20,000 nucleotides of DNA from a virus. Below are positions 1,789-19,257 of this stretch, in pieces (the first letter of the stretch is position 1; each line of letters begins with the position of its first letter). Under the pieces are notes generated by a model. That model saw only the letters and a program-made list of their open reading frames with translations. It searched no databases and was not told where the DNA came from. The translations under genes were made by a program, and so were the position numbers. The stretch is from IMG/VR virus record IMGVR_UViG_3300030202_000094, positions 1-20,000 of that record, one strand, 5' to 3'.

Positions 1789-3807
1789 ATGGCTGGATTT
1801 TCCATAGATATTGGTGACGAAGGTGTAGCTTACGAGAAAGCAGTAAAGATGCCCTCAGCAAGTACATCAGCAGCAGCAGTAGCTGGTACAGTTAAGTTAG
1901 CTGACGGTATCTTTAAAGTACTAGATCAGTATGACAAAGCTACAAAAGCATCAGGACCAACAGATAGCTCAATAAAGAGAGCAGCCTACGGTAAGTTAGC
2001 TCAAGCTGTCAACGCAACAAAAGGTCAAAGCCCTTTAAATACTAGAACTGCAGTAACTTCAGCTATAGTTGAGTACACAAACGCTGGCTTCGAGATTGGT
2101 CAAGCTGAAAAAGACTTGGTTACTTCAGCTACAGGTATAAACATAGACTACCTTGGATTTGATCCTAATCAGGCAGCTATAGACGGTGCATTAGAAACAA
2201 TAAGTAACAATAGAGCCTACTTATTTGGAGCTAGAGATAAACTAGACGCTACAGGTAAACCTTATACACAGACAGAACTATTACAAACAGCAATACAAGA
2301 AGTGCAGAAGGTTGAGTCAGCAGCTTTATATATATCAAACTCTCAAGTAACAGATCAAGCTGACTTTCAAAGAAACTATATGCCTCAAGCTAGAACACTT
2401 ATCTCAGACTTGAGGTCAAAGGTACTCTTGGGTCTTCAGATAGAAGCTGATGAGGGTAAGAGTATTATGCCTGAAAACCTAGTTAACTTAGAAGTAGAGT
2501 TAGCTAACTTAGATGGTTTTATAAAGAGTAAGATACCAGCAGGACTACCTGCAGACGTAAGTAAACCTTTGTTTGATGACATAGAAGTACTCAGAGGACA
2601 GCTAGACATTCTGAAAAACTTCGACAAGAAAAGATTAGATGCTAAAACTCTTGATCATATCAACAGAAATACTGAAGTTCTCCTAGATTTTGTTCAGAAG
2701 GAAGTTGACAATCCTGTTGTAGCTAACGCTCTACTGTCAGGAAACTTTGATGCTACAGCTTTAGTGTCAACTAAAATAACTGATCTAAAGAAGTCTCTAA
2801 ACAACTTAGATAAAGATGATCTAGAGTACGTTGACTTGTTTACCTTTGCTCCACCTGAGGTTGCTTCTAAAATATCTGGAAACAAGGTTGAGGCAGATAC
2901 AGGCGTAAAGACTACTCTACTTGATAACAGCTTAACTAATTTACACGATGTAGATGAGATAGAAAAAGCTCAAGATCGTAGCAACACTAAACGTAAAGAT
3001 GCTATATTCTTTGCTTCTATAGAAAGAGTAAATATAGTTGAACCTTCTAGTATGAATATACCAGAACACAGAGACAACTTCTTAGGTGGTATAGGACAAG
3101 CAACCATAAACATCTCTACATCTCCTAACATATTTAAACCATCTACACTCACTCAAATCTACAATGAGCAGACATACAAAAGCTTGGAGATTATAGACCA
3201 GCTTGACCCAACACAAGCCACTATAGCTAGAGCTAGACTAGCAGACGGACTAAAAGCTCAGTTAAATCTTGTTTCTACTGATGTATCAGGTTCTGATCAA
3301 GGCTCATACTTTAAGGTTACTGGTCTTGGTGAAATAGAATACGATTTAGAAAGACGTATAGATACAGGTCAGATACGTATGGATAGGCAGGTGTTGCCGC
3401 TTGTAAAAGGATTTGCATCTAAACACTACAATGGTAACGTAACTGCTATGGTAGCTGACAGAGGACGTAGGTTAAAAAATGAAGACCCAGTTGGCTATAA
3501 TCAGATAGAAAATGTAGGGTTTAATTTTTTAAATGCTTATGGTGATTACAAGAATGTGCTCAAGAACTCCAATAGAAAGAAGTTCTACATCAAGCATATG
3601 AAGCGACTAGGTTTATCAACAGAAGATATAGAACAAAGCTTAATAAAAGAAATAGAACAGACAGAACAAAAAGCTATGGGTACTTTACGTAACCCTTGGC
3701 CTATATTCTGGTCAGATGAAACCGACACTGATGAAAAACTATTCTTGTCTATCAAGAAGGGTGAGTACTACACTGACATCAACGGTGATGTAAGGATTAA
3801 AAACTAG
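1789..3807 (+). CDS. Probable virion protein, 672 aa, family not recognised
   Basis: This is a long ORF with an ATG preceded at about 6 bases by AAGGA, starting 9 bases after the previous stop. The N-terminus has an Ala/Ser-rich stretch (about residues 24-36). The rest looks mainly helical, charged and without Cys-rich or membrane segments. No enzyme motif is visible. Its stop (TAG at 3805-3807) overlaps the GTG of the lysozyme-domain gene by one base, so the two are probably translated together. Lying between a large virion protein and a lysozyme, it is most likely an internal virion or tail-associated protein of the ejection apparatus, but this rests on position only. Confidence 0.5.
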   Translation: MAGFSIDIGDEGVAYEKAVKMPSASTSAAAVAGTVKLADGIFKVLDQYDKATKASGPTDSSIKRAAYGKLAQAVNATKGQSPLNTRTAVTSAIVEYTNAGFEIGQAEKDLVTSATGINIDYLGFDPNQAAIDGALETISNNRAYLFGARDKLDATGKPYTQTELLQTAIQEVQKVESAALYISNSQVTDQADFQRNYMPQARTLISDLRSKVLLGLQIEADEGKSIMPENLVNLEVELANLDGFIKSKIPAGLPADVSKPLFDDIEVLRGQLDILKNFDKKRLDAKTLDHINRNTEVLLDFVQKEVDNPVVANALLSGNFDATALVSTKITDLKKSLNNLDKDDLEYVDLFTFAPPEVASKISGNKVEADTGVKTTLLDNSLTNLHDVDEIEKAQDRSNTKRKDAIFFASIERVNIVEPSSMNIPEHRDNFLGGIGQATINISTSPNIFKPSTLTQIYNEQTYKSLEIIDQLDPTQATIARARLADGLKAQLNLVSTDVSGSDQGSYFKVTGLGEIEYDLERRIDTGQIRMDRQVLPLVKGFASKHYNGNVTAMVADRGRRLKNEDPVGYNQIENVGFNFLNAYGDYKNVLKNSNRKKFYIKHMKRLGLSTEDIEQSLIKEIEQTEQKAMGTLRNPWPIFWSDETDTDEKLFLSIKKGEYYTDINGDVRIKN

Positions 3808-4577
3808 TGGCTAACATATCTATAGAGGGTGGAACTTTAATAGAAGAACAACGTAAGAAAGTTGTCGAAACTATTGCTGCTGTCAACGAGGGTAATGCCT
3901 CTGTTAGAGGTGGTTCCCTTGTAATAAAAAGAATAGATGAGGCAGTCGATGTTATTCAAGGTGGTATACAAGCTATGGAGCAACCGCAACCAGCATCACC
4001 TAATCCAGATAGACCCTTCTACCAATCTACAGTACCTATGGAGCAAAGATTTGAACAAAAAACTATTACTGATGAGCCTAGTTCTAGTGTTGCTGCTGAG
4101 GTGCAGCCTACAGATGGGAAAGTAGACCCTTGGAAAGAAACTTTGTTTGAATTTTTGAAAGAAGAAGAAGAGTTTAGAGGAGAGGCTTACAAAGCTACCA
4201 AAGGTGAGAAGTTTTTAACTATAGGTTTTGGTCACTACGGTTCAGACGTTAAAGAAGGTCAAACGATAACTGAAGAAGAAGCTGTAGCACAGTTGAGACA
4301 GGATATAGATGAAAGAATACCTGAAATAGAAAGAGCTATACCTTCTTTTAATACATTTTCTGATAACTTAAAAGTACAAATAGCTCAGAGTTGGTTTAGA
4401 GGTGGTATAGCAGGAAGTCCTGATACAATAAAGTTAATTAATGAAGGTAAATTTAAAGAAGCTTCTGTTGAATTTTTAGATAATGAAGAGTATAAAAACG
4501 CAAAAGAAAGACAGCGTTCAGGTATTATAAATAGAATGGATTTAGTAGCTGATGCTTTATCCAAGGAGACACAATGA
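3807..4577 (+). CDS. Lysozyme-domain (GH24-type) muramidase, endolysin or virion-associated
   Basis: The 256-residue protein starts at a GTG that overlaps the previous stop. Residues 1-105 are an extension with a Pro-rich linker (about 59-75). Residues about 110-250 match T4-type lysozymes (family GH24), which cleave the MurNAc-GlcNAc bond of peptidoglycan. The match includes catalytic Glu at about E121, the TIGFGHYG motif (138-145) with the equivalent of T4 Thr26 at T138, and a C-terminal INRMDL helix. The position aligned with T4 Asp20 reads Ala (A130) in YKAT, so the usual E-D-T set lacks its Asp. There is no signal peptide or membrane anchor, so release would need a holin, or the protein is carried in the virion. 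The ATG of the lipoprotein gene overlaps its stop (ATGA). The lysozyme fold is well supported; endolysin versus virion role is open. Confidence 0.8.
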   Translation: MANISIEGGTLIEEQRKKVVETIAAVNEGNASVRGGSLVIKRIDEAVDVIQGGIQAMEQPQPASPNPDRPFYQSTVPMEQRFEQKTITDEPSSSVAAEVQPTDGKVDPWKETLFEFLKEEEEFRGEAYKATKGEKFLTIGFGHYGSDVKEGQTITEEEAVAQLRQDIDERIPEIERAIPSFNTFSDNLKVQIAQSWFRGGIAGSPDTIKLINEGKFKEASVEFLDNEEYKNAKERQRSGIINRMDLVADALSKETQ

Positions 4578-5185: not shown

Positions 5186-5575
5186 ATGGAGTTACCTAAA
5201 GTAAATATAGCAGTAATCGGTATTATCTGCAGTTCCTTGGGTGGTATGGTGTGGTACGCCTCAGAGCAAGCATCTATAATAGCTAACCTAGAAGAGACTG
5301 TAGCAATACTTGACGCTCAAAGCAATACGACTGACAAAGTAAATATGATCAGGGATATTGAGCAAAACAAAGACAACATAAACGAGATAGTCGGTATCAT
5401 GGCTGAGACTGAAGCAGACATTTACGATGAGACTGATGAGTTATGGGATGAGGTAGACGGTATGAGCCTGAGTATCATGCGTATCGTTGAGCTACAACAA
5501 AGAGTAGCAGTGTTAGAAAAAACACTAGAGTTCATCAGTCGTGATCACAAAGATATGCTTGATCCAAGGCACTAA
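5186..5575 (+). CDS. N-terminal membrane anchor plus coiled coil, 129 aa
   Basis: One transmembrane segment is visible at about residues 7-25. A long acidic, heptad-like region follows (about 30-118, with LEETVAILDAQ and LQQRVAVLEKTLEF), and the protein ends in DPRH. The start ATG is 5 bases after the previous stop. The topology of a short N-in anchor with a long periplasmic coiled coil is that of Rz-type inner-membrane spanins, and the lysis-like neighbourhood allows this. However, the acidic coil and the nearby u-spanin candidate make a structural or chaperone role equally possible. No family is recognised. Confidence 0.6.
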   Translation: MELPKVNIAVIGIICSSLGGMVWYASEQASIIANLEETVAILDAQSNTTDKVNMIRDIEQNKDNINEIVGIMAETEADIYDETDELWDEVDGMSLSIMRIVELQQRVAVLEKTLEFISRDHKDMLDPRH

Positions 5576-5577
5576 AT

Positions 5578-6024
5578 ATGATTGATCCACTCAGCGCATT
5601 GGCGATGGTCAAGGGTGGCATCAGTGCAGGTAGAACAATCGCATCAATGTCTAAGGAACTAGGTAGTTTCTTTGACAGTGTAGATGGCGCAAAGAAGGAA
5701 CACGAAAAGAAGAAACAAAGCCCTTTCAGTAGTACAAATGAAGAAGCTCTGGACACGTTTATGAAACGTCAACAGGCTAAACAGGCTGAAGAAGAATTGA
5801 GAGAGTTCATTGTTAACACTATTGGCTACTCTGCTTATCAGGAACTACTCAAACTTCGTAGAGAGATTGCTCAAGAAAGAAAAGAAGCAGAAAGACAAGC
5901 AAGAATAGACGCTGAACGCATAAAAGAAAATGCTGAGATGGCGTTTATTACTGTAGTAATTTTCTTGTTGATATGTGGTGGGGCGTTAGGTTTACTAGTC
6001 GCTATGGGTTGGGTCGATTTATAA
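5578..6024 (+). CDS. Coiled-coil protein with C-terminal membrane helix, 148 aa
   Basis: The ATG has AAGG about 8 bases upstream and lies 2 bases after the previous stop. Residues 1-40 hold Gly/Ser-rich amphipathic sequence. Residues about 55-120 are a highly charged Lys/Arg/Glu/Gln helix (predicted coiled coil). Residues 121-144 are a clear transmembrane segment ending in a short tail. This makes it a tail-anchored membrane protein. The stop overlaps the next ATG by one base (TAATG). Proteins of this layout occur at the end of structural modules in marine podoviruses as far as I recall. The function is unknown; a lysis accessory role is possible from context. Confidence 0.6.
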   Translation: MIDPLSALAMVKGGISAGRTIASMSKELGSFFDSVDGAKKEHEKKKQSPFSSTNEEALDTFMKRQQAKQAEEELREFIVNTIGYSAYQELLKLRREIAQERKEAERQARIDAERIKENAEMAFITVVIFLLICGGALGLLVAMGWVDL

Positions 6025-6326
6025 TGGTAGAGGAATACGACTTAGATAAGAACGGTAAGCTAGATGCCGAAGAGCGTCAGCTTTACCTAGACGATAGGCG
6101 TAGACGATTAGAGGATGACGATGCCAAGCGTGATGCCCAGCGTAACATGACTTGGTTTGCTCTATCAGGTATGGTGTTGTACCCTGCAGGTATCTTTCTA
6201 TGTACCTTAATTGGTCAAGAGACTGCAGCAATGTTGATAGCTGACATAGCTAACATCTACGTTGTATCTGTATCAGCCCTTGTCGGAGCGTACTTTGGGT
6301 TTACTGCGATGGGAAATAGAAAATAG
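6024..6326 (+). CDS. EF-hand loop plus two membrane helices, holin-like, 100 aa
   Basis: The ATG at 6024 overlaps the previous stop (TAATG). A longer reading from 5973 would lie inside the upstream gene and is not used. Residues 6-17 form a textbook EF-hand calcium loop with D6, D8, N10, G11, L13, D14 and E17 at positions 1, 3, 5, 6, 8, 9 and 12. A charged helix (18-40) follows, then two transmembrane segments at about 44-64 and 70-93, and a basic C-terminus. Two helices with both ends predicted inside is class II holin topology, and the gene sits after the lysozyme and spanin-like genes. The EF-hand loop is directly visible; calcium binding and holin function are inference. It could equally be a virion membrane-interacting protein. 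Confidence 0.65.
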   Translation: MVEEYDLDKNGKLDAEERQLYLDDRRRRLEDDDAKRDAQRNMTWFALSGMVLYPAGIFLCTLIGQETAAMLIADIANIYVVSVSALVGAYFGFTAMGNRK

Positions 6327-6338
6327 TAGAGGCGATTA

Positions 6339-6515
6339 ATGGCTAAATCAGTACCAACTAATCCTGCTCTTTGGTCTAGAGCTAAGGCAGCAGCAAAGAA
6401 AAAGTTTAAAGTATATCCATCAGCTTACGCAAATGCTTGGGCAGCTAAATGGTACAAGTCCAAAGGTGGTAAGTGGAAGGGTGCAGACAACAGAGTAAAG
6501 AAGAGGAAAGCTTAA
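6339..6515 (+). CDS. Small basic aromatic conserved phage protein, 58 aa
   Basis: The ATG at 6339 has GAGG 6 bases upstream. The 58 residues are Lys/Ala/Trp-rich, with a central YPSAYANAWAAKWYK motif (about 26-40) and a Gly-Lys-Trp tail. Similar short proteins with the PSAYAN/AAKWYK signature occur, to my memory, in many phages and some large viruses. Their role is not known. The stop overlaps the ATG of the next micro-ORF by one base. Confidence 0.7.
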   Translation: MAKSVPTNPALWSRAKAAAKKKFKVYPSAYANAWAAKWYKSKGGKWKGADNRVKKRKA

Positions 6516-7503: not shown

Positions 7504-9405
7504 CTAAGTTATATCAACCATTTCACATACGTCACCAGTGCAAGCAAATGTCTGGCTTGATTTAGTACTATCCTCTTTTTCGTAATTTGTCAAGAGTGAC
7601 CAATCTATTTTCTCTGGCATTAGTGACAATAATGTCACATACTCACTTTTCATTATGTCCTGATAAGGTGCTTGTTGGTAGGTGTGTTCGTTGTAAGGTA
7701 AGAAGGACACGCCTGACATCTCATCAAAATGTTTGTAGACAAACGCTCCAACCTCAAACCATTCATCCTTCCTGACGTTGATAGTCACACTAGGCTTGTG
7801 CTCACACCAATGCCTCTGATACATGAGCCATGTTTCTAGTTGATCTATAGCTGACATATCCTCAGTAACTATAGCATTGGCAGGAGACTTGATAGGGAAG
7901 CTGAACACTGTAGTCTGATCAGGTTTCATTACACAAGGTTCGCTAGGTATTCCCTGATCCTTCATAAAGGCTGTCAGTGGGTCTTTGTTGTCACCTCTTA
8001 CAGTCCTGATGTAGTGCTTGGAATGTCTTGCGTGGATACCTGAGGCACTGTCAACAAGTTGACTGACGGTTCCTGAAGGTTTGACGCAGGTAATAGCAGT
8101 GGAAGGATTAATCCCAAGAGTATTAGCCAAACTATTATTTGTGTTAACTGCAACCTGTCTAAGATTTTCGAGATTCTTCGATAGTCCATTTTTCTTACTC
8201 GTTAGTAAAGGGTTGTCCATTATGCCTGTTAGAGATACACCTAGCAGACGTTCTTCTTCTGTGTTGTCCTTCCATATCTTACGAAGGTATGGGAACTTAG
8301 TGTAGGTAGACTGTATAGTTCCTAGTGTAGTAGCTATCCTTACCTTACGTCCTAGATCAGCGAAGTTGTCGTTAGACCTGACAACAACCTCTGTCAAGTT
8401 ACAGAACTGGTATGGCCTAAGTATAATCTCTGAGCAAGGGTTAGTACCGAACTGCCAATCAGGATCACGTCTACCATACTTAGCTGCTTGTTCCTTGCTT
8501 GCTTCTCTATTGAAGATACCTCTCTCACCACTACCTGACTCGACAAGAGCCATCCACTCACGCATGAACGACAGACTATCAGGCTTCTCTGTGTAGGCTA
8601 CAGAGTTGTTAGCTAAAGCACGTTGAGGATCGTTAGTCCACCAATCACCTGACTTAGCGTGGCGCATCCTATCATCTGACAGGTTAGACAGACTAATCAT
8701 AGCTGACCTACGGACACCACCAACTACTACAACCTCACCAATCTTACACATAAGATCGTGACACTCTATTGATGATAGCTTACGTCCTTGTGCGTCCTTG
8801 AATATCTTTATTGAAAAGTTAAACAAGTCAACCAAAGGAGCAGGACCACTAGCTCTACCACCAAATGTCTTTAGTCTAGAACCTGCAGGTCTTACCTTTG
8901 ACACATCCCACTTAGGTATCTCTCCTGCCCACAACAGTGCTAGTATCTGTCTGAAAGCCTTAGCCCAACCCTCTTTACTGTCCTTGACAACAACTGTGGT
9001 GTCGCTCTCGTAAAGCTCAGGCACGTCAGGTAGCTGCTGCACAAACTGACGCTCTACGCTAAAACCTACACCAGTACCACATAACAGTATGAACATAGCC
9101 TCATCGAAAGACTTAGGGTCATCGACAGGTAAGTAACTACAGTTGTAGCCTGATGTGTTGTCTCTCTCCAACGCCTTACCTGCTGTCATCATAGCTCTCA
9201 TGCTAGGCATAACCTCTAGGTTAAGGATTGATTCCTCTATCTGATCCACAAAACTATCTCTACCCATGACAGGTACGACTACATTCTCCATGTATCTTTC
9301 AACAGTCTCAGCCCAAGTCTCTCTGCGTTGTTCTTTCTCTAACCAACGTGCATACCTTGAAGTGTGTATGAACGCTTGGTAATCGGTTGGTAAGTAGTTA
9401 TTCAT
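7504..9405 (-). CDS. Class II (adenosylcobalamin-dependent) ribonucleotide reductase, monomeric type
   Basis: The enzyme reduces ribonucleoside triphosphates to deoxy forms using coenzyme B12, supplying dNTPs for phage replication. The 633 residues carry the reductase motifs: C89 in GYNC, the thiyl-radical motif NPCSEI (C324), FCNLTE with the second redox Cys at 335, and a C-terminal Cys pair (622 and 627) for transfer of reducing equivalents. The PSGTVSQLVDSASGIHARHS segment is also typical. There is no separate small subunit gene and no glycyl-radical motif, so class I and III are excluded. It is shorter than the roughly 740-residue Lactobacillus enzyme. The ATG has GGAGG 5 bases upstream and overlaps the previous stop by 8 bases. 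B12-dependent RNR is a hallmark of SIO1-like roseophages. Confidence 0.95.
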   Translation of the reverse strand: MNNYLPTDYQAFIHTSRYARWLEKEQRRETWAETVERYMENVVVPVMGRDSFVDQIEESILNLEVMPSMRAMMTAGKALERDNTSGYNCSYLPVDDPKSFDEAMFILLCGTGVGFSVERQFVQQLPDVPELYESDTTVVVKDSKEGWAKAFRQILALLWAGEIPKWDVSKVRPAGSRLKTFGGRASGPAPLVDLFNFSIKIFKDAQGRKLSSIECHDLMCKIGEVVVVGGVRRSAMISLSNLSDDRMRHAKSGDWWTNDPQRALANNSVAYTEKPDSLSFMREWMALVESGSGERGIFNREASKEQAAKYGRRDPDWQFGTNPCSEIILRPYQFCNLTEVVVRSNDNFADLGRKVRIATTLGTIQSTYTKFPYLRKIWKDNTEEERLLGVSLTGIMDNPLLTSKKNGLSKNLENLRQVAVNTNNSLANTLGINPSTAITCVKPSGTVSQLVDSASGIHARHSKHYIRTVRGDNKDPLTAFMKDQGIPSEPCVMKPDQTTVFSFPIKSPANAIVTEDMSAIDQLETWLMYQRHWCEHKPSVTINVRKDEWFEVGAFVYKHFDEMSGVSFLPYNEHTYQQAPYQDIMKSEYVTLLSLMPEKIDWSLLTNYEKEDSTKSSQTFACTGDVCEMVDIT

Positions 9406-9553
9406 CTAATCCTCCGTTGTTCCAAGGGTAGCATGGAACGATGCTTTGTTTACAATACTTTTTGTTGTCCACCAGTAAAACTGGTAATATTATTATTACG
9501 AAGACACAGAATAATAAAGGCCATATCAGACCCTTAGTGGTGCAGTAGTTCAT
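9398..9553 (-). CDS. Small membrane protein with Cys, 51 aa
   Basis: I take the ATG at 9553, which overlaps the previous stop (ATGA) and has GAGGG about 8 bases upstream. An in-frame ATG at 9577 with GGAG 4 bases upstream is possible. Residues about 9-27 form one transmembrane helix. The tail has Cys near residues 34 and 41, with a PWNNGG end. The gene overlaps the RNR start by 8 bases. Function unknown. Confidence 0.6.
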   Translation of the reverse strand: MNYCTTKGLIWPLLFCVFVIIILPVLLVDNKKYCKQSIVPCYPWNNGGLDE

Positions 9554-9633
9554 TTGTAATCCCTCGTAAAAACCCATATAGCTCCTGCTATTACACAGAA
9601 TAATATAATCATAGCTGTGTAAATGTCTGTCAT
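9550..9633 (-). CDS. 27-residue single-helix membrane micro-ORF
   Basis: The ATG overlaps the MazG-like stop (ATGA), has GGAG 7 bases upstream, and its own stop overlaps the next ATG (ATGA). The peptide has one hydrophobic helix (about residues 7-21) and a charged TRDYK end. Linked overlaps on both sides and a good ribosome site make this a likely gene despite its size. A longer frame reading through the same bases (to 9679) has no such support. Confidence 0.55.
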   Translation of the reverse strand: MTDIYTAMIILFCVIAGAIWVFTRDYK

Positions 9634-9992
9634 CTCTTGTCTCCGTTGCCTCGTAGCGTTCCTCGCTTTTGTCTGCCATGTAACTTCTCTAGGTTACTAT
9701 AAGCTACGTTCTCCATGTCAACATTTAAGTCTCTACACAGAGCAGCTATATACCAGAGACAATCTCCTATCTCGTCAGCTATAGCCTCACGATCAAGCTT
9801 ACCATCTCTCATAATCTTCTTGACTTTGTTTGCTACCTCTCCTGCCTCAGCAGCTAAACCCAACGCAGGGTAAATGATTGCGTGTTTCTTATCATAGATA
9901 GCTGTCGTTGCAGCTTGCTGTTGATACTTATCCATGTCAAGAGGGTCTTGATTGTAGTATTGAAACGCATTTATATCGTCTAGAGTTATCAC
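9630..9992 (-). CDS. MazG-like nucleotide pyrophosphohydrolase, 120 aa
   Basis: I take the GTG at 9992, which overlaps the previous stop (GTGA) and has AAGGA about 9 bases upstream; an upstream GTG at 10010 is in frame. Counting from 9992, residues 49-52 and 74-77 give the metal-binding ExxE and ExxD (EAGE, EIGD) of the all-alpha NTP pyrophosphohydrolase superfamily, in the order MazG uses. These enzymes hydrolyse NTPs or dNTPs to monophosphates and PPi. Phage versions are thought to tune nucleotide pools or remove modified dNTPs; a role in ppGpp has been proposed and disputed. The location among RNR and nuclease genes fits pool control. Confidence 0.85.
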   Translation of the reverse strand: MITLDDINAFQYYNQDPLDMDKYQQQAATTAIYDKKHAIIYPALGLAAEAGEVANKVKKIMRDGKLDREAIADEIGDCLWYIAALCRDLNVDMENVAYSNLEKLHGRQKRGTLRGNGDKR

Positions 9993-10174
9993 TGTTCTAG
10001 TTCCTTCCACTCTCTAATTTCTACATCTAAATAAAAATAATCATTCATGTTGATAGTACCATCGTCTACCAACTTACGTATGATTGCTTCATCATCTAAA
10101 TCATTTTGTTCCATCAACAACTGTAGTCCGTAGTTATTGACAAGAGCTTCTATCTTACTATCGTGGTCAAACAT
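9989..10174 (-). CDS. Small acidic phage protein, 61 aa, unknown
   Basis: The ATG at 10174 has AAGG 7 bases upstream; a TTG two codons earlier is in frame but has no spacing for an SD. The product begins MFDHDSKIEALV, is acidic and helical, and contains LMEQNDLDDEAII (about 20-32). I recall short phage proteins with the FDHD...EQND pattern. Function unknown. It overlaps the MazG-like start. Confidence 0.7.
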   Translation of the reverse strand: MFDHDSKIEALVNNYGLQLLMEQNDLDDEAIIRKLVDDGTINMNDYFYLDVEIREWKELEQ

Positions 10175-11850: not shown

Positions 11851-12339
11851 TTACCAACGATCCTCTGCAGCCATCTCTTCAAATGGTACGTGTTCGAGGA
11901 TGCCAACTTTCTCTAACCTTACTGAGGCGGTAGCTCCCTCACCGTAGATAGAGATTTTAACCTTAGCCTTAGTGCCGTTACCAAGAGCACCGTCTTCAAT
12001 ATAATCCCAAGGTTTATTGGTAGTGCCGTGAGTAACGGATGGCGCACCACCAAAGTCTTCAATACCAGAAGGGTGTTTGTTAGGACGTTTGAGTTTCATA
12101 CCTGCACGATTATCTGCTGCAGAGATTGGCTTGATCATACGGTTGCCCATTGATTCCTCAGGGAAACCCATCTCAACAATCTTCTGTAGCTCATCATCAT
12201 CCTTAGGTACGAACACAGTATTGAACTGTCCTTCTGTACGCTCATGGTATTCTGAGTCATCAATGTTGTCCTCGAAGATACGTGCGTAATACAAGTCACC
12301 TTCGAATACACCATACTTAGTTTTCTTTTTAGCTGTCAT
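11851..12339 (-). CDS. Single-stranded DNA-binding protein, T7 gp2.5-like
   Basis: The 162-residue protein would coat ssDNA at the fork and contact polymerase and helicase. It has a beta-rich body (YGVFEGDLYYARIFE at 9-23, AKVKISIYGEGATASVRLEKVGI near 125-147) and an acidic tail with a terminal aromatic (EEMAAEDRW), which is the protein-interaction tail typical of phage SSBs. It is shorter than T7 gp2.5 (232). A strong GAGGAG lies 7 bases before the ATG. With its own promoter upstream and terminator downstream, it looks set for high expression, as SSBs need. Family call rests on tail, size and context rather than clear OB motif identity. Confidence 0.8.
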   Translation of the reverse strand: MTAKKKTKYGVFEGDLYYARIFEDNIDDSEYHERTEGQFNTVFVPKDDDELQKIVEMGFPEESMGNRMIKPISAADNRAGMKLKRPNKHPSGIEDFGGAPSVTHGTTNKPWDYIEDGALGNGTKAKVKISIYGEGATASVRLEKVGILEHVPFEEMAAEDRW

Positions 12340-12371
12340 TTACAAGCTCCTCTTTACTGATTCGTTTCATC

Positions 12372-12400
12372 AACATACACTCAAATCCTTTTAATGTCAA
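12372..12400 (-). promoter_or_regulatory. Sigma70-type promoter upstream of SSB
   Basis: Leftward TTGACA (12400-12395), 17-base spacer, TATGTT (12377-12372), with a start expected near 12365, about 26 bases before the SSB ATG. It lies in the only sizeable gap (about 96 bases) of this part of the arm. The -35 is embedded in TGCTTGACAT, also found in the promoter candidate at 19866-19894. Confidence 0.65.
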
Positions 12401-12435
12401 GCAAAAAATGATAGGGAATAGTGCAAAAATCCAAG

Positions 12436-13452
12436 TCAATGAGTATCCTTCCAATTATATCCTATGTCAGTTGACCCTGCGAGTGGGCAAATCATACCAA
12501 ACTTTTCACCAGTGTCAACAATAGATTGCCTTTGTATCTTACCTAGTAGTTCAGCATCTTTCATCTGCCCACGCACTTCTGTTTGCCACTCATCGTGAGG
12601 CCACGTAACAAGCTTGAACTCAATGAACTGCCGCCTAGCTTTGTGTACCCAATCAAGTGCTGCGTGTTTCATTATGGTTGACTCACCATTCTGAAGCATA
12701 CCTGCTAGTGTCTTGTGTTCTGAAGGTACTATAACCCTACGCCCATCAAGACCTTTGAACCACCCACGTTTAGCTATGTGTGGTATAATCTTTTTCTTTA
12801 AGTCGGCAAGCCCTTGAATTGATTGCATAAAGTTCTCAACTGCTTGCTTCGCTTCTTTCTGATTGACCTTGAGTATCTGTGCTACCTTAGCATTACCTGC
12901 TCCTAGTAGGAACGCATAGATAAAAGTCTTAGCCATATCTCTTGTTATGTGGGACATACCTAGAGCCTTACGGTTGAGGTTGTGTATGTCTGTTTCATCT
13001 TCTCTCTTCCCTGACACGATAGCGTGTACGTATTCCTCTGACTTCATCAGGTGTGCAAGTACACGTAACTGGATACCTTCAGCGTCTGTACCTACCAAGT
13101 AACAGCCTTTGGGTACACACCACAACTCACGTAGTTGACCATCGTATCTATCCTTAACCTTCTCCACTGCAGTGACAGCATCACCATGAAACTGTGCAGG
13201 GATGTTAGCTTGGTTAGGATTTCTGTGTGCCATCCTACCTGTCCATGCACCAACGTGAGTAAAGCTACCGTGAATACGTGAATCGTCACCACAGTGTCCT
13301 AGCCACTCCACTAGTGAGGATCGCCTACCCTCAAGTGTCAACCACTCCGCTAGACGTTTGCCTCCTGCAGGTGCTGTCTCAGGCAGTGTGTTAAGGTTTG
13401 CCTCAGATAAAGTCCATCCAAACTTAGCAAATTTCTGTCCTCTTTCATCCAT
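12436..13452 (-). CDS. DNA polymerase (PolA/T7 type), C-terminal polymerase half of split gene
   Basis: This 338-residue half has the palm and fingers. Motif A is GTDAEGIQLRVLAHLM (T7 Asp475 equivalent). The O-helix motif B is TRDMAKTFIYAFLLGAG (T7 K522 and Y526 equivalents kept; T7 Y530 is Leu). KGLDGRRV follows, and motif C is PHDEWQ with the catalytic Asp. It ends GYNWKDTH, as T7 polymerase ends in NWxxxH. I take the ATG at 13452, which has AGGA about 5 bases upstream inside the endonuclease gene; a TTG four codons earlier is in frame. Its first codons overlap the endonuclease stop. The missing exonuclease half is at 13851-14750. Together the halves total about 640 residues against 704 in T7. 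Activity as a two-chain enzyme is inferred. Confidence 0.9.
   Translation of the reverse strand: MDERGQKFAKFGWTLSEANLNTLPETAPAGGKRLAEWLTLEGRRSSLVEWLGHCGDDSRIHGSFTHVGAWTGRMAHRNPNQANIPAQFHGDAVTAVEKVKDRYDGQLRELWCVPKGCYLVGTDAEGIQLRVLAHLMKSEEYVHAIVSGKREDETDIHNLNRKALGMSHITRDMAKTFIYAFLLGAGNAKVAQILKVNQKEAKQAVENFMQSIQGLADLKKKIIPHIAKRGWFKGLDGRRVIVPSEHKTLAGMLQNGESTIMKHAALDWVHKARRQFIEFKLVTWPHDEWQTEVRGQMKDAELLGKIQRQSIVDTGEKFGMICPLAGSTDIGYNWKDTH
13441..13448 (-). repeat. ATGAAAGA direct repeat, downstream copy at polymerase break
   Basis: Leftward ATGAAAGA begins at 13448 in the first codons of the C-terminal polymerase half. The same 8 bases occur at 13882-13875, 434 bases upstream. Both copies are in the same codon phase (GAA AGA), so removing one copy plus the insert joins the two polymerase frames. 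Confidence 0.6.
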
Positions 13453-13882
13453 TCTGTTCCTCAAATCTTTCTAAATATTTAAGTGCTCTTTTCAGCCCAT
13501 CAATATCATCACCTAACATACCTATACCTATATTACAACTTTTACAAAGCCATCCTCTGAAAGTTTCTTTCTCATGGCAGTGATCTAAATGTATGTCTAA
13601 ATTTTTTATAGAAGAAAAAGGTGTAGAACAGCACTCACAATTTTCTGGTGTAGGTGGAGCAGTTTTTCTTAGACTTGCTAGAATCTTACCTTGATGATTT
13701 GCACAGTCTTTGCATATGTGGTTGGTTAAAGTCTTTTCCTTACCATCAGAACCTAGTCTTCTATTTCTTCCAAAGAAATTAAAATTGTTAGGAAGATGTT
13801 GTTTACATCTAGAACAACATTTAGTGTCACCTTCAAATTTTATTTTTTTATTACCGAAAAGCTCTAGCTGACTGTCTTTCAT
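13445..13882 (-). CDS. Endonuclease VII-like HNH/His-Me endonuclease inserted in the polymerase gene
   Basis: The 145-residue protein has a T4 endonuclease VII-type core: Cys82/Cys85 and Cys113/Cys116 for a structural zinc, Asp100-His101 (T4 D40-H41) and Asn117 (T4 N62) at the nuclease site, in HLDHCHE and RGWLCKSCN. An extra zinc-finger-like part precedes it (C23/C26 and C57/C60). Such proteins are often free-standing homing endonucleases. The gene fills the break between the two polymerase halves almost exactly, overlapping the first by 32 bases and the second by 8. Its DNA is visibly richer in A+T than its neighbours, which suggests later arrival. Confidence 0.88.
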   Translation of the reverse strand: MKDSQLELFGNKKIKFEGDTKCCSRCKQHLPNNFNFFGRNRRLGSDGKEKTLTNHICKDCANHQGKILASLRKTAPPTPENCECCSTPFSSIKNLDIHLDHCHEKETFRGWLCKSCNIGIGMLGDDIDGLKRALKYLERFEEQNG

Positions 13883-14750
13883 AGTCTATATGTCCTTTCG
13901 TTTTCTCAAAGGGTTTCCATCCTGCATCCCACAGTCTCTCTATCCGCATCTTAGGTGAGGCAGGGTTGAAGTCTATGAAGTCGTAGCATACTAGCTCAGG
14001 CTCTTGCTTTGACCAGTCCACTACTGTCTTTGCGTGTTTCTCCTGTGCGTTGGTCACGTTGCTGTACAGTGTACCGTCAGCTTTCTTTCTGTACTTGATA
14101 CGGTTGACTTCCTCTAGCTTGGGTGGGAAGTCCTCTTGGAAAGCATCCTCAAGGTGTGCCTTGCGTTGTTCTATCTCATCAAGTAAATCTTCAGCCTTGT
14201 CCTTCTTGAAGTAGAAGCCGTTGTCTGTCATGGTCTGGCACAATATTTGTATGTCATGCTCACACCTCATAGCCCACTCCCACTCAGGATTATGTATTTC
14301 TTTCTTGAACTTATCGTACACTCTTAATGTAACTGTAACGTCCTGATGACAGTACTTTATCATTTCATCTGACAACATAGAGAAGTCTGAGAAGTCCATC
14401 TTGAAGTTACCTAGCCTGATGCCCCATGCCTTGAGTCCATGCCCATGCTTGATGTCGAAGTCAACCAGTCTGCTGACAATCAGTGTGTCTATGACTGACT
14501 CCAAAGGTATCAAGTCTTTCTTTACAAGGCGATTAATAATAGGAACATCAAAGCATATTCCGTTGTGGAATATAAACTTGTCATATCTATTACAGTACTC
14601 AATGAACCTCTCCTTCTCTTCCTGTAGTGTGGTGAGGTGAACAAAGTGCTCCTTCTCACCTGTCTGCACATCTTCTGCACAGATACACCAAATCTTTTCA
14701 GGAGTCAGTGATTCTGTCTCGATGTCCATTGCAACGATCTTATCTGTCAT
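13851..14750 (-). CDS. DNA polymerase (PolA/T7 type), N-terminal exonuclease half of split gene
   Basis: I take the second of two adjacent ATGs (14750), since GGAG lies 6 bases upstream; the first (14753) is too close. The 299 residues carry the three 3'-5' exonuclease motifs: MDIETES (D9, E11), HNGICFDVP (D68) and YCHQDVTVT (Y133, D137). The thumb region follows, up to NPASPKMRIERLWDAGWKP, which aligns just before the T7 palm. So proofreading should be intact, but all polymerase motifs are on the other chain. The last seven residues come from the inserted endonuclease DNA. It overlaps the preceding membrane-protein gene by 11 bases. Confidence 0.9.
   Translation of the reverse strand: MTDKIVAMDIETESLTPEKIWCICAEDVQTGEKEHFVHLTTLQEEKERFIEYCNRYDKFIFHNGICFDVPIINRLVKKDLIPLESVIDTLIVSRLVDFDIKHGHGLKAWGIRLGNFKMDFSDFSMLSDEMIKYCHQDVTVTLRVYDKFKKEIHNPEWEWAMRCEHDIQILCQTMTDNGFYFKKDKAEDLLDEIEQRKAHLEDAFQEDFPPKLEEVNRIKYRKKADGTLYSNVTNAQEKHAKTVVDWSKQEPELVCYDFIDFNPASPKMRIERLWDAGWKPFEKTKGHIDYERQSARAFR
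13875..13882 (-). repeat. ATGAAAGA direct repeat, upstream copy at polymerase break
   Basis: This copy contains the endonuclease start codon and the Glu-Arg codons at the end of the native part of the N-terminal polymerase half. After it, that frame continues with only seven foreign residues (QSARAFR) before a stop. Confidence 0.6.
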
Positions 14751-14952
14751 CATCTTCTCCTGTAAACTCTACCCACATTAGAGCTACTACGTTGAATATC
14801 CATAGCGAACTACTGAACATAACTTTTGGGAAGCTCATCTCTTCTGACTTTTCTAAAAAATAAAATATAGTTCTTACGTGTACGTAATACAAGAACACGC
14901 CAAAGAAATATATTACTGCTGCAAAGGCAGCGTAGGGATCAATATACTGCAT
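14740..14952 (-). CDS. Two-helix membrane protein, 70 aa, between helicase and polymerase
   Basis: The ATG at 14952 lies inside the end of the primase-helicase gene (14-base overlap), with a weak GAAAG upstream. Hydrophobic segments at about 8-26 and 43-62 predict two membrane helices; the middle and C-terminus (GEDDDR) are charged. No family is recognised. The position inside the core replication block hints at a link to membrane-located replication or host takeover, but nothing in the sequence proves it. Confidence 0.6.
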   Translation of the reverse strand: MQYIDPYAAFAAVIYFFGVFLYYVHVRTIFYFLEKSEEMSFPKVMFSSSLWIFNVVALMWVEFTGEDDDR

Positions 14953-16549
14953 ACTTTTCTTTCAATGTAAAGGAGTCAGGGTCAAACTGTAGCTGCCCTG
15001 CGTATCCTGTTGGACCTACTGGTCTGTTCTTTGTCACTAGTAGCTTGGTTGTGTTCCTCTCTTCTCTGTCCTCTGACATCTTGTCACGCTGTAGATCAAC
15101 TACAACTGAGGCACGTTGCTCAATCATACGACAGTACTTTACCTGACCGTCATCGTTAGTGTGTCCTATAGTTACAATACCTACACCCAACTCTGCTGCA
15201 AGCTTGGATAGCCTGACTGACAGGTCAGCTAGGAACTGCTCCTTGCTATCCTCTGTACCTGCGTTGGCAGATATGTCTTGGATAGGTTCGAAGAACACGT
15301 AGTTGACATCACACGCTTGAGACAGATACCTGATCTGTGACAGTAAGTCAAGTGGATCGTCCTCATCATTGAGAAAGAACTGGTATAGTCTCTCATCCTT
15401 GGTCAGCTTAGTGATAGCTTCCTGCACTAGACTGTCAGCGTTCTTGTCCTCTATCAAGTCCTTGCGTGTCAGGTTGTCACCCACTTCGTAGGATACCAAG
15501 CCAAGTATAGACCGTAGCTTAGTCTCTTCCATGTGCCACGTAGCTATCTTGATGTCAGGGTACTGACTGAGTATTCTGTACTCAAGGTAACGCATGAACT
15601 CTGTCTTACCAATACCTGTCTGTGCCTTGAACAGTGTGAAGTGCCCTTGCATCAAGCCTAAGCACATCTCATCGAACTCCTGCACACCTGTCTCCACGTA
15701 GATGTGGTTCTCTGACTTGTTGTACAAGCCAAGGAATTGATCAGGTGTATTCAGTATGTTAGCAGGTGTATACTTCCTAGCATTGAACCACGCTGACTTG
15801 AATGTCTTTGCTTGACCCTCTTGTAGGAACTCGTTGGCATCCTTGTACTTGTCAAGCTCCATGCGATAGACCTTGTTAGGGTACAGGCTTGCTATCTTTG
15901 CTGACACTGAGTTACCTTGGTCATCGTGTTCGATAGACAATACTATCTTGTCGAAGGAAGACAGGAACTTGTTTATCTTTTCCCATAGCTTGTGCGATGG
16001 TGTTGACGATGGCAACGACACAACAGGGTTGTCGAACTTAGGGTTGTGTAGCATCTGGTATGCTGACATAGCATCTAGCTCACCCTCTGTGATAGTAATG
16101 ATCTTGCTTGTGCCACTGTTCCATAGGTTCATACCGAACAACTCATCAGTCTTTAGGTTCCTAGCACTGAATGTCTTTGGTAGTTGCCTGACCTTCACAC
16201 CACCCGAAGGGTAGATGTACTCTTGTCGCACTGGTTCACCCTTGCCATCTATGAAAGTCTTACAGTCGTAGAACTCCATAGTTTCCTTGGTGATGCCACG
16301 ATAAGCCATGTGCATAGGCTTGACAAACTCTGTGACATTTGATTCTTGTTGTTGCATATCCCAAGATTCCTTGTTGTGTTTGTAAGTTGGATACTCTTCT
16401 TCTGCCCAGTTGTCAAGGTCTTTCATTTGTTTTGGGTAAGACCTGTTGCAAGAATGACACTTACCTGCCATAGTTTCTGTGTTGTATGAGAACGCATCAC
16501 TGCTATCACAGTCAGCAGCAGGACATTCTTTATGGCTTATCCAAGTCAT
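14939..16549 (-). CDS. Primase-helicase, T7 gp4-like
   Basis: The 536-residue fusion makes RNA primers and unwinds the fork. Domains in order: zinc-binding (C9, C14, C31, C34), TOPRIM primase core with TEGELDA (E155) and IEHDDQG (E207, D209), and a RecA-type hexameric helicase. The helicase has Walker A QTGIGKT (310-316), TWHMEE as the catalytic Glu region, VFFEPIQDI (Walker B), TIGHTNDDG (motif H3) and the late KNRPVGPTGYAG with the Arg-finger region. The TOPRIM position equal to T7 D207 is Glu. The ATG has AAGGAG 8 bases upstream. Slightly shorter than T7 gp4 (566). Confidence 0.95.
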   Translation of the reverse strand: MTWISHKECPAADCDSSDAFSYNTETMAGKCHSCNRSYPKQMKDLDNWAEEEYPTYKHNKESWDMQQQESNVTEFVKPMHMAYRGITKETMEFYDCKTFIDGKGEPVRQEYIYPSGGVKVRQLPKTFSARNLKTDELFGMNLWNSGTSKIITITEGELDAMSAYQMLHNPKFDNPVVSLPSSTPSHKLWEKINKFLSSFDKIVLSIEHDDQGNSVSAKIASLYPNKVYRMELDKYKDANEFLQEGQAKTFKSAWFNARKYTPANILNTPDQFLGLYNKSENHIYVETGVQEFDEMCLGLMQGHFTLFKAQTGIGKTEFMRYLEYRILSQYPDIKIATWHMEETKLRSILGLVSYEVGDNLTRKDLIEDKNADSLVQEAITKLTKDERLYQFFLNDEDDPLDLLSQIRYLSQACDVNYVFFEPIQDISANAGTEDSKEQFLADLSVRLSKLAAELGVGIVTIGHTNDDGQVKYCRMIEQRASVVVDLQRDKMSEDREERNTTKLLVTKNRPVGPTGYAGQLQFDPDSFTLKEKYAVY

Positions 16550-18487: not shown

Positions 18488-18670
18488 TCAACCCTGTAGT
18501 TTACTTAATGTTTCTATATGCTTTTCAGCTTCAGCTAAATTCTTATACAAAGTCTTAGCTTGACCGTCAACGAATAGTCTATACTTGTAGTCACTACCTT
18601 TTCTTATTGGTAATGTTCTTACTTGATATACTTTAGTTGATGTTATTCTTTTATCTATTACAGTTTTCAT
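18488..18670 (-). CDS. Small basic protein, 60 aa
   Basis: The ATG overlaps the stop of the HhH-like gene (ATGA). The sequence is basic, with an N-terminal beta-like half (KVYQVRTLPIRKGSDYKYRLF, about 13-33) and a C-terminal helix (LAEAEKHIETLSKL). It resembles small phage strand-helix proteins, but no family is assigned. Confidence 0.6.
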   Translation of the reverse strand: MKTVIDKRITSTKVYQVRTLPIRKGSDYKYRLFVDGQAKTLYKNLAEAEKHIETLSKLQG

Positions 18671-19257
18671 ATCTTATTCTCTCTTTTCCATGTAGTCCAA
18701 GTGATAGCCTGCAGTACATGAGGCTTGACGTTCACACGCTTTGCCGCCCTTACATATACCTCTTGCATCTGTCTGTATACTTTCTTTGACATATTAGTCT
18801 TATCAGTAGTCAAGCCTTGCCTTATGCCTAGCGCAATGTTCAAGGCATGACCATCAATAGTGACCTCATTTAGTCCACGTATGTTTGAATAGAATGACCT
18901 GATCTTTTGTCCATTGAGCCTGTCAAGTATCTCATCATCACTAGTCAAGTCATCATCGAGTATAGACCAAGCCTTGAGCTTCATAGTGTTATAACATGAC
19001 ACCTTGAAGTCATCCAAGTCATCACCTTTGACCCATGCCTCACACATACGTTCACAATCGTGTACGTTGCGCTCCCACTTGTTGTTAGGTGACAATGCTG
19101 CCATTACACCTATCACAGTGTTTACGTTGGTATCTGTACGACTAGCGATAGCATAAGCGTATCTCTTAGCTCTGTCATACCACTCTACACCGTTGATTAT
19201 GTCGTGTGTCGTAGCTCTACGGTATACCTTTAGTATGTTTCTAACGTGTTGTGTCAT
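18667..19257 (-). CDS. Conserved phage protein, HhH/DNA-glycosylase-like fold suspected, 196 aa
   Basis: The gene starts at an ATG overlapping the previous gene by 4 bases (ATGA). Features seen: WYDRAKRYAYAIA (26-38), ALSPNNKWERN (54-64), a KLKAWSIL helix (93-100), LNGQKIRSFYSNI (114-126) and VTIDGHALNIALG (132-144). I recall the same series (ALSP...W..N, K...FY.NI, VT.D.HA) in a widespread phage/mobile-element family of unknown function. A K-x-x-x-F-Y-x-N segment followed by VT-x-D-x-HA is reminiscent of the HhH-GPD glycosylase fold, where the Asp is catalytic; D135 would be the candidate. The catalytic idea is inference. Next to early genes, a role in host or phage DNA modification is possible. 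Confidence 0.65.
   Translation of the reverse strand: MTQHVRNILKVYRRATTHDIINGVEWYDRAKRYAYAIASRTDTNVNTVIGVMAALSPNNKWERNVHDCERMCEAWVKGDDLDDFKVSCYNTMKLKAWSILDDDLTSDDEILDRLNGQKIRSFYSNIRGLNEVTIDGHALNIALGIRQGLTTDKTNMSKKVYRQMQEVYVRAAKRVNVKPHVLQAITWTTWKRENKI

Follow-up and report, generated by a model that had tools for sequence, protein, structure and literature searches.

Two minus-strand open reading frames, at positions 14753–13851 and 13452–12436 of a 20 kb virus fragment (the window, i.e. the whole stretch of DNA analyzed), together encode a T7-type (family A) DNA polymerase, and an endonuclease VII-like open reading frame at 13882–13445 lies between them. The two halves probably form a functional two-chain polymerase whose junction serves as a docking site for homing nucleases, and the nuclease in the window would be the current tenant of a pre-existing break and not its proven cause. 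The replication genes of the window are in cobavirus order and the virus is a cobavirus (Cobavirinae, Zobellviridae), one of the marine roseobacter-type phages; among annotated phages, Roseobacter phage CRP-5 and Lentibacter phage ICBM2 are nearest to it. The window also has a 196 amino acid open reading frame at positions 18667–19257.

The N half (13851–14753, minus strand) has a chain length of 300 aa and comprises the 3′–5′ exonuclease and the start of the thumb. It matches the Pfam families DNA_pol_A_exo1 (PF01612, 2.2e-9) and RNase_H_2 (PF13482, 1.2e-11) as well as phrog_17 (8e-50). The C half (12436–13452, minus strand, with its ATG at 13450–13452) has 338 aa, which comprise the rest of the thumb, the palm and the fingers; it matches DNA_pol_A (PF00476, 7.8e-34) and its polymerase motifs A, B and C are all intact. 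When aligned with the intact 626 aa polymerase of a related locus, L222, the N half covers residues 2–279 with 46% identity and the C half residues 294–626 with 65% identity, and a short linker is the sole part missing. The 145 aa chain encoded between the halves (13445–13882, minus strand) is a beta-beta-alpha-metal nuclease of the homing type with matches to Endonuclease_7 (PF02945, 6.5e-14), phrog_2633 (3.1e-19) and Hpy99I (4.7e-9). The profile, the zinc cysteines and the DH and N active-site residues place it, by sequence, in the Endonuclease VII family. The eight cysteines and the DH...CxxCN residues are invariant in 19 distinct EndoVII copies. The order exonuclease half, endonuclease, polymerase half had been described in the first-pass annotation, and both the positions of the three open reading frames and the profile matches agree with it.

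An AlphaFold2 model of the intact L222 enzyme (pLDDT 90.6) matches T7 DNA polymerase with a TM score of 0.75–0.80. With its exonuclease, its A, B and C motifs and the T7 gp5 fold, the enzyme is a T7-type family A polymerase. In the model the break is located in the loop between helices 277–284 and 288–297, and by alignment this corresponds approximately to residues 350–366 of T7 gp5, a position which we take to be within the T7 thumb. The break had been described as lying between thumb and palm; given the T7 domain limits that we assume, it is instead between two thumb helices.

The three open reading frames overlap at both edges of the nuclease gene. A ribosome-binding-like AAAGGA at 13893–13898 (minus strand, as are all features here) is found within the Lys-Gly-His codons of the N half and precedes the nuclease ATG at 13880–13882. 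This ATG is 34 nt past the LWxxGW codons (+34); it is the start of the nuclease in the window, and relatives without a nuclease begin their C half there. Over 32 nt (13851–13882) the N half overlaps, by its 3′ end, the 5′ end of the nuclease, which is read in the +1 frame. At the other edge the nuclease stop and the C-half start overlap by 8 nt (ATGGATGA, 13445–13452), and this right edge is common to unrelated nucleases of relatives. The 3′ end of the nuclease contains a second ribosome-binding-like site, GAGGA at 13458–13462, ahead of the C-half ATG at 13452, and thus the nuclease gene does appear to supply both ribosome site and start codon for the second half, as had been suggested.

Relatives were gathered by four protein scans of IMG/VR together with annotated phages. 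This gave 254 loci with both halves, some of them near-duplicates: 115 have an intact polymerase, 79 are split without an insert and 60 are split with intervening DNA. Trees were built from 87 representatives. The cultured isolates CRP-5 and ICBM2, where the two polymerase genes are annotated in GenBank, are split at the same point as the window but are free of an insert and of a junction nuclease. The two polymerase open reading frames overlap in the nuclease-free splits. The C frame relative to the N frame is +1 in all of these (79/79) and 0 in the intact genes (90/90). The C half begins at the +34 ATG in 78 of the 79 nuclease-free splits, and in each of these 78 an SD-like word from the Lys-Gly-His codons precedes that ATG. 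The +34 ATG is absent from intact genes (0/89) and starts an open reading frame in 49/49 cassette-bearing loci of the lineage of the window.

Several other arrangements were seen among the relatives. In T5S1-type cobaviruses, which include L143–L146 besides L005, the polymerase halves are 2.4–3.2 kb apart. The halves of L005 are at 5498–6358 and 9083–10096 with a primase/helicase gene between them, and genes annotated as cobaltochelatase are located upstream. Small non-nuclease open reading frames that display a VPKEF/IPKEY-like motif at their end precede the C half in L148, L153, L154 and L005 of this lineage. Loci L041–L046 are about 92% identical to the window in the C half and 65% in the N half. 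Between the window and L044, dS is 0.47 in the C half against 1.66 in the N half. This hints at recombination at the junction; however dS is likewise unequal in L191/L164, a pair with intact genes, and the discordance was dropped as proof of recombination. Endonuclease VII genes near the polymerase in S-CBP2, CRP-6, a Votkovvirus and Pasto are not the same case, as they are beside intact polymerases and not inside them. In S-CBP2 (L006) the endonuclease VII-like open reading frame is unannotated and overlaps the 3′ end of the intact polymerase (4001–4345); endonuclease neighbors of intact polymerases are upstream in CRP-6 and downstream in AP013540 and Pasto.

The junction is occupied by nucleases of at least five types. 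The inserted open reading frames of the 49 cassette-bearing loci are EndoVII (25), the HNH phrog_1035 type (9), HNH with a resolvase-like HTH (HTH_7) (5), HNH_3 (4), T5orf172 (2, in L033 and L049) and four others, which are a T5orf172-like open reading frame in L024/L025, an HNH-like one in L060 and two unmatched ones in L076. The two open reading frames in L076, neither with a family match, occupy the junction at 3225–3807. In L024/L025 the +34 ATG opens a leader of 22 codons and the nuclease start is further down. The EndoVII, HNH_3, T5orf172 and HNH+HTH cassettes have a common right edge, ATGGATGAA, at which the end of the nuclease gene and the beginning of the C half overlap by 8 nt; neither the word nor the overlap was found in nuclease-free splits. 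The flanks may be nearly identical where the tenants differ: the window and L013 are 97/96% identical in the flanks and 38% in the nucleases, and L033 and L037 are 97.5/94.6% identical around the site, where L033 has T5orf172 and L037 has EndoVII. In L205 (4754–5056) the junction nuclease is shifted and shortened to 100 aa instead of 131, apparently a frameshifted homing gene in decay.

Filled and empty alleles at this fixed site are present in close relatives, as is characteristic of free-standing homing endonucleases (L078/L086, L103/L198, L120/L002, and L050/L060/L051 compared with L062). On the trees the inserts are scattered, with 11–12 changes, nearly all of them inside the main split clade of 46 split representatives. 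Spread of a cassette independent of its backbone, another mark of homing, is documented for the HNH+HTH tenant of L078, a nuclease of another type than that of the window. The backbone of L078 is 97.5/97.3% identical to nuclease-free L086 but 74/78% to L103, which is of a distant lineage, while its cassette and the one in L103 are 98% identical, and the identity switches at the ATG. L078 is demonstrably, from these alignments, a horizontal cassette transfer with the footprint of homing. Its recipient was already split, since the backbone matches that of L086, which is itself split. The first-pass description of a free-standing homing-type gene in the break is thus upheld. Its further proposal, that this nuclease broke the polymerase, is not: the same split is found without a nuclease in the 79 loci, CRP-5 and ICBM2 among them, and the alignments indicate that the split does not have to be the work of a nuclease, and that in at least one documented case, L078, it was not. 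The break region of related phages is homologous, as that proposal had supposed, and it is already split. Probably the break was already there when the nuclease moved in.

The leader sequences point in the same direction. The nuclease of L103 and L078 opens with 13 residues that also open the C half of nuclease-free L198, read in the +1 frame, and such a fusion is only possible after the split because the N and C frames are the same in an intact gene. In the wider branch of the window the leader Met-Thr-Glu-Asn is common to nuclease-free L062 and to L050, L051 and L060, which have three different nucleases. In the lineage of the window the order of events is read by analogy, because the loci within 5–6% of it in the C half whose junction is readable all carry a cassette; by this analogy the split would be older than the nuclease here also.

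The reverse order is considered unlikely. Here a homing gene would have split an intact polymerase, and later deletions joining the nuclease start to the C half would have given the nuclease-free splits. In its favor, the junction nucleases are widespread, the +34 ATG may be left over from a nuclease start, and the nrdA/mobE split of phage Aeh1 is a precedent (PMC2988022). A two-state rate model gives the ancestor of the main split clade a near-even probability, 0.54–0.58, of being nuclease-free, and a loss-only model fits the trees better than a gain-only model, which favors the nuclease-first order. However the linker of the nuclease-free splits (mostly 82–88 nt) is about as long as that of intact genes (mostly 87–93 nt), so that only the frame has changed and no nuclease remnant is present. 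The cassette-type right edge is missing from the nuclease-free loci, the deeper-branching lineages L181 and L203 are nuclease-free, and the cassettes of L078 and L103 entered genes that were split. Had a homing gene created the split, as in the Aeh1 type, close relatives without the nuclease would be expected to have an intact gene, whereas the nearest nuclease-free relatives of the window (L044, CRP-5 and ICBM2) are already split. The C-half tree rejects a single origin for the split forms as a whole (p-AU 2.5e-6), and the loop was therefore broken at least twice or was re-fused.

The 8-base word ATGAAAGA is present at 13875–13882 and again at 13441–13448, 434 bases apart and in the same codon phase, as the first-pass annotation had pointed out; the right copy encodes Asp-Glu-Arg of the C half. 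The repeat itself is real, but it was rejected as an insertion scar. Shuffled edges share a word of at least 8 bases with P ~0.08. The left copy is native, as nuclease-free L044 has TATGAAAGA at that place, and the right copy is spelled differently (ATGAACGA or ATGAACGT at the equivalent bases) in many cassette-bearing relatives. Across the 49 cassette-bearing loci the longest shared word has 5 to 11 bases and often falls at another place. Removal of the insert had also been expected to restore the reading Asp-Tyr-Glu-Arg-Gly-Gln across the join. Joining at the repeats leaves 69 nt between the two GW motifs, which is below the 78–135 nt of the intact relatives measured and the 73–121 nt of the insert-free splits displayed, and therefore restores no known ancestor.

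Production of a full-length polymerase by programmed +1 frameshifting or by splicing, so that the open reading frames would not be two proteins, is very improbable, although the overlapping frames of the nuclease-free loci, with the C frame always +1, are a point in its favor. No shared slippery codon was seen before the N stop in the relatives read, and the ATG with its SD-like word is constant. With the nuclease open reading frame in between, frameshifting would make a three-part fusion, and in T5S1-type relatives the separation of the halves, in L005 by another gene, excludes it. As to splicing, a group I or II intron was rejected since Rfam gave no match over 12300–15000 even at E ≤ 5, and an intein or split intein was rejected since Pfam and PHROGs searches of the three open reading frames gave no Hint/intein splicing domain. 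This is in line with the first-pass reading that the insert holds neither a ribozyme nor an intein.

Both halves are under strong purifying selection. Whether the gene is intact, split and empty or split and filled, dN/dS is 0.03–0.17 in each half. The catalytic residues are essentially invariant over the 126 split loci; the exceptions are one locus with N at D10 and two gaps at the first exo motif. These values and the retained residues indicate that the two-chain polymerase is almost certainly in use. They also make it scarcely credible that the split gene is degenerate and another polymerase is used, a reading for which no points in favor were found. By analogy with 43A/43B and with Aeh1 NrdA, discussed below, the two chains would assemble into an active polymerase. 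Thus of the earlier proposal that the nuclease left a two-chain enzyme, the two functional-looking chains stand, and the nuclease as the maker of the split does not.

The following sequence of steps is proposed. The replicative T7-type polymerase would be made as two separately translated chains that assemble across the thumb loop. In the nuclease-free state translation of the C half would begin at the out-of-frame ATG within the N-half 3′ end, and the conserved Lys-Gly-His codons would supply its ribosome site. A homing cassette may then enter the junction; the incoming nuclease would take over the +34 ATG, and the 3′ end of the cassette would provide the C half with another ribosome site and start. 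Unrelated nuclease types would replace one another, presumably as each cuts empty alleles and is then copied into them, and the nuclease of the window is predicted to cut empty alleles. In a wider sense it seems likely that a break in an essential replication enzyme has become a lasting docking port, at which unrelated nucleases are swapped within fixed edges, each of them taking the start codon away from the downstream half and supplying a replacement, and that the loop was broken, or re-fused, on more than one occasion.

T4-like and N4-like phages already provide examples of split polymerases with junction nucleases, and OM43 phages have a polymerase split at another place. The best-known split phage polymerase is gene 43 of Aeromonas phages 25 and 44RR (43A/43B), with a seg-type nuclease at the junction in phage 25; the two phage 25 proteins are purified together and have activity, and a review leaves open the order in which the split and the homing gene arose in phage 25 (PMC2988022). 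The cobavirus case is similar in that a replicative polymerase is in two parts, with a nuclease at the junction in one phage and none in a relative. It differs in that gene 43 is a T4-type, family B polymerase, whereas that of cobaviruses is family A and has dozens of filled and empty alleles with several nuclease types. In Aeh1 the nrdA gene is split by the free-standing mobE without splicing and both chains work (PMC2988022). The likeness is a free-standing nuclease in a split essential enzyme with no splicing; however the enzyme is another one and the nuclease is credited with making the split, while in cobaviruses nuclease-free relatives are split too.

OM43 phages MEP401 and MEP402 (Zobellviridae) have a split DNA polymerase with a small open reading frame that the authors take as a possible intron (PMC10580990). 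As in the window, a family A polymerase of a related phage group is in two genes with an open reading frame between. The split in MEP401 (L292, 6111–8221), of 387 + 236 aa around a 77 aa open reading frame, was nevertheless rejected as the same split: the break is at a different position, inside the polymerase domain. The intervening open reading frame has no assigned type. An HNH gene splits the DNA polymerase gene in Vibrio N4-like phages JA1 and VchO139-I, where an intron was suggested (PMC3670811); the HNH gene in a polymerase gene is alike, but those phages are of the N4 type. In ICP1-like phages different homing genes turn over at one place next to essential genes, forming HEG islands (PMC10448857). 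These islands bracket genes, whereas cobaviruses have a single junction within an enzyme with common start and stop edges. A literature search found no paper that discusses the polymerase split in cobaviruses. Three features appear to be new: intact, empty and filled alleles form a series, they have a start codon in common where split, and unrelated nucleases turn over within fixed edges.

Cobaviruses provide a natural series of intact, split-empty and split-tenanted polymerase genes. Some pairs in it are 97% identical, and it allows the order of events to be read and to be tested with cultured phages. The series shows gene fission surviving by out-of-frame internal initiation, and it offers a ready-made two-chain T7-type polymerase for biochemistry.
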